From a bacterium (GTDB taxonomy: Bacteria > BMS3Abin14): a stretch of DNA of 8,114 bases. Positions within the stretch are counted from its first letter, which is position 1, and every line of letters begins with the position of its first letter. The notes beneath the pieces are model-generated. The model made no database searches, was not told where the DNA came from, and saw only the letters and a program-made list of their open reading frames with translations. The position numbers and the translations under genes were made by a program. This document shows, piece after piece, positions 1,255 through 8,114 of this stretch. Location of the stretch: positions 1 to 8,114 of the forward strand of contig JARGFV010000109.1 of NCBI GenBank assembly GCA_029210545.1, read 5' to 3'.

Positions 1255-1304
1255 TCCTGGAATGTGGAATTTGGAATCTGAAATTGGATTTAGCTGACAG
1301 CTAA
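1232..1304. repeat. Intergenic heptamer-repeat block (NAGCTRA, TGGAATN, NAGCTRA arrays)
   Basis: Almost the whole gap between the acidic protein and the TPR lipoprotein is built of 7-base units. Three NAGCTRA-type units begin at 1232, 1239 and 1246. The middle one is degenerate (TAGCAAA). Four TGGAATN units begin at 1258, 1265, 1272 and 1279. The last has one change in the core. Two further NAGCTRA units begin at 1291 and 1298. Five-base spacers (TTTCC, GGATT) separate the arrays. The outer arrays also create the two hairpins annotated separately. The block is non-coding, and its function is unknown. Confidence 0.75.
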
Positions 1305-2982: not shown

Positions 2983-3060
2983 AGGATCGGTAGAAGTAGA
3001 AACAACAAGTCATCTGGTGTAGCTGGTGCAACCTGCTGTTTCTACTCCTACTATTATCCT
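2983..3060. repeat. Long imperfect inverted repeat in the rodZ-fusA gap
   Basis: The 15-base arms at 2990-3004 (GTAGAAGTAGAAACA) and 3037-3051 pair with a single mismatch. A flanking AGGAT/ATCCT pair (2983-2987 with 3056-3060) extends the stem beyond an asymmetric internal loop. The 32-base centre contains CTGGTG twice. It could be a non-autonomous mobile-element relic, a structured leader or a small RNA. No promoter or T-run fixes a transcript. A minus-strand frame over 2891-3112 lies across these hairpins and does not look like a protein. Confidence 0.5.
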
Positions 3061-3152: not shown

Positions 3153-3187
3153 TGGAACCTGTAACCCGGAACTCGGAAAGCGGAACC
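3153..3187. repeat. Heptamer array (YGGAACN, five units) before fusA
   Basis: Five consecutive 7-base units begin at 3153, 3160, 3167, 3174 and 3181, with consensus YGGAACN. Unit 2 has T for the second G, and unit 4 has AAG in place of AAC plus its last base. The array ends 24 bases before the fusA ribosome binding site. It would be translated if fusA were started at the in-frame TTG at 3145, which is another reason to reject that start. Confidence 0.7.
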
Positions 3188-3210
3188 CGATTGATGCGCC
3201 ATTGGCATCA

Positions 3211-7018: not shown

Positions 7019-7905
7019 CCGGATTCAGGTCCGGTTTCGTGGGGATCCTGGGCAGGCCCAACGTGGGGAAATCCACCCTGTTGAACCGGCTTTGCGGTGA
7101 AAAGCTGGCCATCATCTCCGACAAGCCGCAGACCACGAGGAACAGGATCCTCGGGGTCCTCCACCAGGAGGGTTCCCAGATCGTGTTCGTGGACACTCCG
7201 GGCATGCACGAGACCGGGAAGGCCCTCAACAGGTATATGCAGGCGGTCATTGCCGGTGTAGCGGGAGACGTGGATATCGCGCTTTACATGGTGGATGCCA
7301 CGAGGGCCCAGGGTAGGGAGGATGAACTGGCCCTTGCCATGCTGCCCGAAAGGCCTGAAGTGCCCGTGTTCCTGGTCGTCAACAAGGTCGATCAGGCCGG
7401 GAGCCAGGCTGCGGCGGAAAGAGCCGGAGAGCTGACAGGCCGGTACGGTTTCGCAGGGGTCGCCGCTGTGAGCGCCCTTAACGGCGAAGGCACCGGGAAG
7501 CTTGTGGAGATGATCCTCGGCGCGCTCCCGGAGGGTGTTCCCTACTTTCCGGAGAACATGGTCACCGACCAGCCGCTGGGCTTCAGGCTGGCCGAGATCG
7601 TCAGGGAAAAACTTTTCGATCTGACCCGGGAGGAGATCCCTTATTCCATCGCGGTGGTTGTGGAAAACATCTTCACCCGGCCCGACGGCCTCATGGAAGT
7701 GGGCGCAACGATCTTCATCGAGAAGGAGTCACAGAAGGGGATCATTATCGGGAAGGGAGGGAAAATGCTCAGGGATATCGGATCCCGGGCGCGTCACGAG
7801 ATGGAGTCCCAGCTGGGGAAAAAAGTGTTCCTGCAACTGTGGGTGAAGGTCAAGAAAGGCTGGACCGACAGGGAAGGGCTGCTCAGGCAGATGGGGTATG
7901 AGTGA
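7015..7905 (+). CDS. era: GTPase Era
   Basis: Era is an essential small GTPase that binds the 3' end of 16S rRNA and assists 30S subunit maturation at the cytoplasmic face. This 296-aa protein is complete and of standard length. The GTPase domain shows GRPNVGKS (13-20), the switch I threonines in KPQTTRNRI (38-46), DTPG (60-63), NKVD (123-126) and SALNG (153-157). The C-terminal KH domain that grips rRNA carries the GKGG loop (IIIGKGGKMLRDIG, 243-256) and ends with WVKVKKGW and MGYE. It follows rnc, a conserved pairing that joins rRNA cutting to subunit assembly. ATG 7015 is preferred over TTG 7006. Nothing is missing or unusual in the sequence. Confidence 0.96.
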   Translation: MTGFRSGFVGILGRPNVGKSTLLNRLCGEKLAIISDKPQTTRNRILGVLHQEGSQIVFVDTPGMHETGKALNRYMQAVIAGVAGDVDIALYMVDATRAQGREDELALAMLPERPEVPVFLVVNKVDQAGSQAAAERAGELTGRYGFAGVAAVSALNGEGTGKLVEMILGALPEGVPYFPENMVTDQPLGFRLAEIVREKLFDLTREEIPYSIAVVVENIFTRPDGLMEVGATIFIEKESQKGIIIGKGGKMLRDIGSRARHEMESQLGKKVFLQLWVKVKKGWTDREGLLRQMGYE

Positions 7906-7909
7906 AATA

Positions 7910-7944
7910 CAGTACTCAGTAAACAGTAGCCGGTATGCAGGTCA
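7910..7944. repeat. Heptamer array (CAGTANN) after era
   Basis: Five 7-base units start at 7910, 7917, 7924, 7931 and 7938. The first three keep CAGTA, the fourth reads CGGTA, and the fifth has drifted to CAGGT. The array begins four bases after the era stop codon. It is non-coding. Confidence 0.65.
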
Positions 7945-7982
7945 TACGGATACTGCGTACATGGTTTATGACTTACATTTGA

Positions 7983-8017
7983 CAGTAATCTGTAGTCAGA
8001 AGACAGATGTCAGTATC
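7983..8017. repeat. Second heptamer array (CAGTANN) after era
   Basis: Five further units of the same family begin at 7983, 7990, 7997, 8004 and 8011. The first and last keep CAGTA, and the middle three have one or more changes. It is 38 bases beyond the previous array and out of register with it (38 is not a multiple of 7). The spacer shows no clear repeat, which suggests separate expansion or an intervening indel. Confidence 0.6.
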
Positions 8018-8038
8018 GTGAAACTTATCAGCTGAAGT

Positions 8039-8064
8039 TTGATGACTTCGCAAAAAGTCATCAA
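8039..8064. repeat. Perfect hairpin with a GACTT/AAGTC core
   Basis: TTGATGACTT (8039-8048) pairs with AAGTCATCAA (8055-8064) around a 6-base CGCAAA loop. The loop and right arm together contain TTCGCAAAAAGTC, the same core as in the hairpins at 2828 and 5249. No T-run follows, so it is not an obvious terminator for era. Confidence 0.65.
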
Positions 8065-8065
8065 C

Positions 8066-8083
8066 GCGCCCCGCGCGGGGCGC
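8066..8083. repeat. 18-base perfect GC palindrome
   Basis: GCGCCCCGCGCGGGGCGC is a perfect palindrome made only of G and C, placed one base after the preceding hairpin. In single-stranded DNA or RNA it can fold on itself, and in duplex DNA it offers a symmetric protein-binding site. Confidence 0.7.
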
Positions 8084-8089
8084 CCAAAT

Positions 8090-8114
8090 CAATGACTCAC
8101 CCCGTAAGTCATTG
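8090..8114. repeat. Third hairpin of the terminal cluster, reaching the window edge
   Basis: CAATGACT (8090-8097) pairs with AGTCATTG (8107-8114) around a 9-base loop. The TGACT/AGTCA core is shared with the hairpin at 8039, so arms from the two could also pair with each other. The element may extend past the end of the window. Confidence 0.5.

Follow-up and report, generated by a model that had tools for sequence, protein, structure and literature searches.

The window, by which we mean the whole stretch of DNA that was analysed, is a complete contig of 8114 bases belonging to a 2.72-Mb MAG in 241 contigs. It carries a TPR gene, a rodZ-like gene (HTH_25 and RodZ_C), an EF-G-like gene, a HAD hydrolase gene, an rnc-like gene and era; the names EF-G-like, rnc-like and era were taken from reading of the sequence together with gene order. 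Tandem arrays and the arms associated with them were located at the following positions:

1257-1291, plus strand: GGAATNT array flanked by hairpins at 1229-1254 and 1284-1309 (lag-7 matching, TRF and folding)
2988-3058, no strand assigned: two short arms of AGTAGA type (period 6), convergent and forming a hairpin, fold z -2.59
3153-3190, plus strand: GGAACCC array upstream of the EF-G-like gene, lag-7 matching +5.2 SD, TRF period 7
7910-7944, plus strand: array 1, five CAGTANN-type units with the AG-strand on the plus strand, left arm of a convergent hairpin
7945-7966, minus strand: complementary (inverted) arm within the 38-base spacer, forming the hairpin 7928-7966 with its loop at 7944-7948
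7983-8017, plus strand: array 2, five CAGTANN-type units in the same orientation as array 1

The initial annotation had described two five-unit CAGTANN arrays after era, 38 bases apart and out of register, and this description was confirmed. Array 1 has units starting at 7910, 7917, 7924, 7931 and 7938, array 2 has units starting at 7983, 7990, 7997, 8004 and 8011, and the spacer between them (7945-7982) puts the two arrays 3 bases out of phase. Lag-7 matching in 7905-8030 lay 6.1 SD above dinucleotide shuffles and was the strongest among lags 1-21. TRF did not report the 7910-8017 site even at score 30, because the copies are degenerate; it did report the sites near 1232 and 3153. These had also been annotated as period-7 arrays and stood up as such, the former with lag-7 matching of +4.8 SD against dinucleotide shuffles and a fold z of -2.6 to -2.8. 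The 38-base spacer itself was not random, being mostly complementary to the end of array 1, with which its first half pairs. Folding of 7918-7972 gave -19.7 kcal/mol (z -3.93, equalled by 0 of 200 shuffles); the whole of 7903-8040 folds barely above chance (z -1.3), the hairpin at 7928-7966 having been chosen from within it. Array 2 alone showed no significant fold (z 0.06) and has no partner arm in the contig; a partner, if there were one, would have to be on its right side, which is taken up by a dispersed repeat and then the end of the contig. Rfam had no match in the window, a PF05635 (S23) gene was absent from it, and there was no ORF between the arms of its array sites. Positions 2821-2985 and 8039-8114 are copies of a dispersed palindromic repeat, of which the sampled 1.47 Mb has some 90-115, and the contig breaks at the right end of the window because 8039-8114 is a cut copy of that repeat.

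The periodicity was then measured in 1.47 Mb of the 2.72-Mb MAG, with genes predicted by codon usage. Autocorrelation at lag 7 in all intergenic regions, the check suggested with the initial annotation, revealed an enrichment everywhere in the genome: intergenic lag-7 matching was 1.145 times expectation, an excess of 40 SD that recurred as harmonics at lags 14 and 21. The next strongest lag was 8, with a harmonic at 16, the remaining lags were near nothing, and coding DNA displayed a 3-base pattern. Counted as intergenic arrays in the same 1.47 Mb, there were 165 at lag 7, 53 at lag 8, 63 at lag 14 (a harmonic), 16 and 24 at the harmonics 16 and 21, respectively, and at most 6 at every other lag. 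About one in five intergenic gaps has an array. The density of lag-7 arrays was 125 per Mb in the window's genome versus 3 per Mb in 1.58 Mb of mostly Firmicutes DNA. The pattern CAGTANNCAGTANNCAG, of which array 1 is one occurrence, was found at 87 places in the genome versus 0 for the backwards control pattern. Four successive AGT trinucleotides occurred 69 times at a spacing of 7 and 5 times at a spacing of 8 in the window's genome, with none at 5, 6, 9, 10, 11 or 12; in the 1.58 Mb of mostly Firmicutes DNA none was found at any of the spacings tried (6-10).

The arrays are degenerate tandem 7-mers scattered over the intergenic DNA of the genome, which is the character of dispersed bacterial heptamer repeats. 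The initial annotation had counted three unit families; there are instead dozens of unit types in one genome, with period 7 (for example CAGTANN, CAGTTTA, GGTTCAC, CCAAAGT, GTGCAGA, GAGATCT, GGAACCC, GGAATTT and GGAGGGA) or with period 8 (for example GGAGACGC, CGGGGTAT and GGGGTAAG). The claim that all of them begin Y-R-G depends on the rotation chosen. When the 165 arrays were aligned by rotation and strand alone, with no other input, comparison of the unit consensuses yielded one common register, RG(T/A)NNAN, with 2.91 bits versus 2.21 +/- 0.04 for column-shuffled arrays, and the 8-mers likewise exceeded their shuffled arrays (4.57 bits versus 3.17 +/- 0.08). The period is not strictly 7: arrays of period 8 are common as well, one genus has period 6, and one S23 locus has period 9. 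Some arrays are composite, one heptamer type grading into another, sometimes three in a row (L012:19147-19218, L013:9931-10028, L017:18151-18200 and L257 in G011); examples are TCCTCCC to TTTCCAC and CAGTAAT to AACCCGA.

Eleven genomes were classed in the family of the window's genome, and beyond that family nothing was nearer than the domain. Period-7 arrays were present in all sampled genomes of the family but one (G006, with none in 42 kb by this measure), and their density in the other sampled family genomes ranged from 17 to 278 per Mb. A genus of the same family (g5) had been considered as an array-free natural knock-out and was rejected, as more sequence gave a low density, not zero.

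An inverted partner was detected within 150 bp for 52 of 159 arrays as compared with 13 of 159 in the control, a fourfold difference; about two thirds of the dispersed arrays had no detectable partner. By flank matching, in a tally that may count both arrays of one pair, convergent partners (AG-strand arm first) outnumbered the others by 47 to 6 among the period-7 arrays and by 13 to 0 among those of period 8. Neighbouring arrays that were detected independently of each other were convergent in 22 cases, divergent in none and direct in 7, and the arms of one pair shared their unit type (permutation p < 0.0005). The arrays thus show the convergent pairing of the Xanthomonas heptamer repeats. 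Near-identical copies of whole elements were almost absent from the window's genome, and therefore recent transposition was not seen; the arrays may be built or rebuilt in place, or they may be old.

Genes for four-helix-bundle proteins (S23, IVP) may sit in repeats of this kind, and this prompted a test of PF05635. We used 39 PF05635 loci, 9 own and 30 foreign, the foreign ones being among the best-scoring hits and not a random sample. Genomes from some 30 families had inverted arms around their PF05635 genes, including genomes nearly devoid of other heptamer arrays, and this recurrence offers a common origin for the heptamer repeat type. The left flank matched the complement of the right flank with a mean score of 34.8, versus 18.8 at mismatched loci; the score was above the 99th percentile of the control at 24 of the 39 loci and above the 95th at 28, with 11 lacking convincing arms, and direct repeats at the same locus numbered only 3. 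A lag-7 array was present in a flank of 25 of the 39 genes versus 13% of random genes in the window's array-rich genome, and in both flanks of 8 versus 1%. Other loci had period 8 (L306, L324, L300 and L326) or period 9 (L303), with an equal period on both sides. The layout is illustrated by L290, which reads (AGGCATA)n, PF05635 gene, (TGCCTTA)n, and by the own locus L324, which reads GGAGTAAG, PF05635 gene, CTTACTCC. Where the arms were clear, the whole span had a median of 490 bp. The own PF05635 arms share unit types with the dispersed arrays (for example TTTACAG, CCAAAGT and GGAGTAAG). When a register model, trained blind on the dispersed arrays of the window's genome, was applied to the PF05635 arms, unrelated genomes included, 39 of 42 arms proved convergent (p 6e-9, the two arms of a locus not being independent). 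An Rfam scan of 20 PF05635 loci detected no rRNA and a single tRNA. An empty site of an S23 element was sought in two genomes of one genus, in which no orthologous flank was found. The solved structure closest to one of the own S23 proteins is that of XCC0516 (2GSC) from X. campestris, which is one of the two Xanthomonas species with described arrays.

The link between the gene and the arrays was also visible across genomes. Hits of AGTNNNNAGTNNNNAGTNNNNAGT were strongly bimodal in number among 241 genomes, and genomes were called array-rich or array-poor from the summed hits of this pattern and of the same pattern read backwards, TGANNNN, which is a heptamer pattern too. Outside the own family, PF05635 was present in 54 of 64 array-rich versus 32 of 165 array-poor genomes (OR 22, p 6e-20), a test that ignores kinship, most families giving one or two genomes; the number of array hits correlated with PF05635 (Spearman 0.67). 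The transposase family PF01797, taken as a control, had an OR of 3.2 with array richness, and the PF05635 OR was 20 in the PF01797-positive stratum and 26 in the PF01797-negative one. The initial annotation had proposed to look for a protein encoded only in genomes with arrays, and PF05635 answers to this in part: it tracks the arrays, but 11 of the 60 genomes classed as strongly array-rich (20 or more pattern hits) had no match to it, namely G004-G006, G050, G058, G063, G076, G133, G184, G232 and G238. The genome G019 has 18 PF05635 matches and almost no heptamer arrays by the pattern, and possibly carries a different branch of the family. As a missing partner in the array-rich genomes without PF05635, bAvd (PF22296) was rejected, since it was present in 1 of 26 genomes tested (G058), where 0 of 3 matches had arms.

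Taken together, these results make it fairly probable, in our estimation, that the arrays are the arms of dispersed, S23-type, IVS-like hairpin elements, which exist either with the S23 gene or in a reduced form. A complete element would be about 0.5 kb long and consist of a degenerate array of 7-mers (sometimes 8- or 9-mers), a PF05635 four-helix-bundle gene and an inverted array, with the element strand reading RG(T/A)NNAN in the first array. In this genome most copies have their arms separated by no more than a short loop of 2-200 bp, or survive as a lone arm, and the sites in the window are of this reduced kind. The period, the register, the convergent polarity, the shared arms around PF05635 genes and the co-occurrence across genomes were observed; that S23 acts on the stems and that the elements move is what we infer. 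The transcript would fold into a long periodic stem that is recognised by the S23 ring, which is a pentamer in the solved Xanthomonas relative, and the S23 protein, by itself or assisted by host factors, would promote the formation or spreading of such stems. Copies in the reduced form may rely on S23 made elsewhere or may be decaying remnants, and the number of units would drift through replication slippage in steps of 7 nt. The shared process suggested in the initial annotation is upheld insofar as the genome-wide lag-7 signal, the common register and the tracking by PF05635 point to one process for all arrays; two of the forms in which it had been put, simple slippage and a binding protein with fixed spacing, were not supported as stated, because they leave the convergent pairing and the arms bracketing PF05635 genes unexplained.

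Neutral slippage by a polymerase with a 7-nt preference, through which arrays would grow out of random seeds in intergenic DNA free of constraint, is a reading reportedly given by Mrazek et al. 2007, and as a full account of the present arrays we regard it as unlikely. It agrees with the statement, cited in PMC4679880, that heptamers outnumber all other long repeats in many bacteria, with an indel of exactly one unit at site B between sister species, and with the lack of bias by gene orientation, arrays being found in 20 of 92 convergent, 21 of 101 divergent and 118 of 556 codirectional gaps. However, it predicts neither convergent pairing (22:0 was seen) nor a common register nor a tie to a single gene family. 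Slippage is therefore disfavoured as the sole cause and probably survives as a mechanism of length change acting on existing arrays.

The arrays could also be kept by selection as the sites at which a regulator binds DNA or RNA sequence-specifically with a 7-base spacing, which we hold to be very improbable. Variability within arrays was indeed uneven by column (0.14-0.35 for 7-mers and 0.11-0.50 for 8-mers), part of which may reflect register fitting; one array, at site K, was kept almost base for base between the sister species G003 and G011; and translational regulation was proposed by MacGregor for the TAACTGA repeats (PMC4679880). Against a regulator stand the dozens of unit types in one genome, the absence of any preference for promoter or terminator gaps and the equal distribution of the AG strand with respect to genes (57 sense and 61 antisense). 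Moreover, many intergenic gaps were wholly replaced between G003 and G011 (about 91% identical) with their flanks well conserved, and at site H the two species have arrays at one position with different units, AGGATTC versus ACGCAGA. With no bias in gene context or strand, inference of a function from either was rejected; a stop-codon function of the units was rejected on inspection, several unit types being without a stop.

The least probable reading, that PF05635 genes and arrays both hitchhike in genomes tolerant of selfish DNA and that S23 genes merely land in hairpin-rich DNA, is in line with PF01797 being somewhat commoner in array-rich genomes and with the roughly 100 copies of unrelated palindromic repeats in the window's genome, but is disfavoured by inverted arms persisting at 7 of 8 PF05635 genes in array-poor genomes (<10 pattern hits), by arms matching across the gene in unit type and polarity, and by PF01797 genes (lag-7 arrays in the flanks of 1 of 26 loci) and bAvd genes being without arms.

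With the arrays read as arms of S23-type elements, a wider proposal can be made, to which we give somewhat less than an even chance: that an S23-maintained class of selfish hairpins, with inverted arms of 7-mers or 8-/9-mers, explains the heptamer repeats of very many lineages, Xanthomonas, Nostoc and Beggiatoaceae included, with rRNA IVSs as one branch. If so, the fixed unit length would reflect how the S23 ring reads or templates the stem. It was observed long ago that heptamers are the most frequent of the long simple repeats in many bacteria; to our knowledge no cause for this has been accepted, and we know of no function for the S23/IVS proteins, the structures of which have been solved. 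Joining the two would supply a testable explanation for each, that is, a protein plus a nucleic-acid target of defined period and polarity, and one class of element could account for a large part of the intergenic DNA that changes fast in such genomes. Heptamer arrays and S23 ORFs in rRNA IVSs were each already known. A paper connecting them was not found in a search that covered subscription journals thinly, so one may exist.

In the rRNA IVSs of Leptospira and Coxiella the S23 ORF is bordered by complementary sequences, and excision of the Coxiella IVS from RNA by RNase III has been reported (PMC4990558). The elements described here resemble them in having a PF05635 ORF between stem-forming complementary ends, in size (about 0.4-0.5 kb), and in being patchy and selfish-looking, but they are intergenic and not in rRNA helices 9/25/45, their arms are tandem 7/8/9-mer arrays, and gene-less copies number hundreds in one genome. 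The GGGAATC repeats of Xanthomonas, with 70 convergent pairs in Xcc and 75 in Xac (PMC4692102), and the GGGGA(T/C)T repeats of Nostoc are likewise degenerate, dispersed, intergenic heptamers with units that vary between close species; convergent pairs are frequent in Xanthomonas, and inverted pairs are few in Nostoc. Unlike the present arrays, they are of one G-rich unit type and are discussed as G-quadruplexes with no S23 link made (PMC4692102); the majority of the units in the present arrays lack a G-tract and would not fold into quadruplexes. The TAACTGA repeats of marine Beggiatoaceae (PMC4679880) are also intergenic heptamer arrays, and their complement, TCAGTTA, resembles the CAGTT-type units found here, but they are a single unit lying mostly just upstream of start codons, with almost no inverted pairs. 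Calothrix has three types of heptanucleotide repeat (cited in PMC4692102) and so, like the window's genome, several heptamer families per genome; the passages on them do not describe arms, a gene or polarity. REP/RAYT systems (PF01797) are similar in being scattered hairpins between genes that a gene acting in trans possibly serves, and differ in having no tandem 7-mers.

Some further features of these genomes were noted. Period-6 arms of the AGTCCT/AGTAGA type, seen in the window at 2988-3058, also occur at L200, L202 and L213; period-6 arrays are frequent in the related genus g4 (G003 and G011), there in hairpins as well. A relative of the palindromic repeat, about 163 bp long (L200:13178-13340), is scattered through G011 and G008. 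The free positions of CAGTANN are species-specific, being CC in G003, GT or TT in G001 and AT, GC or GT in G000, as if homogenised per genome.
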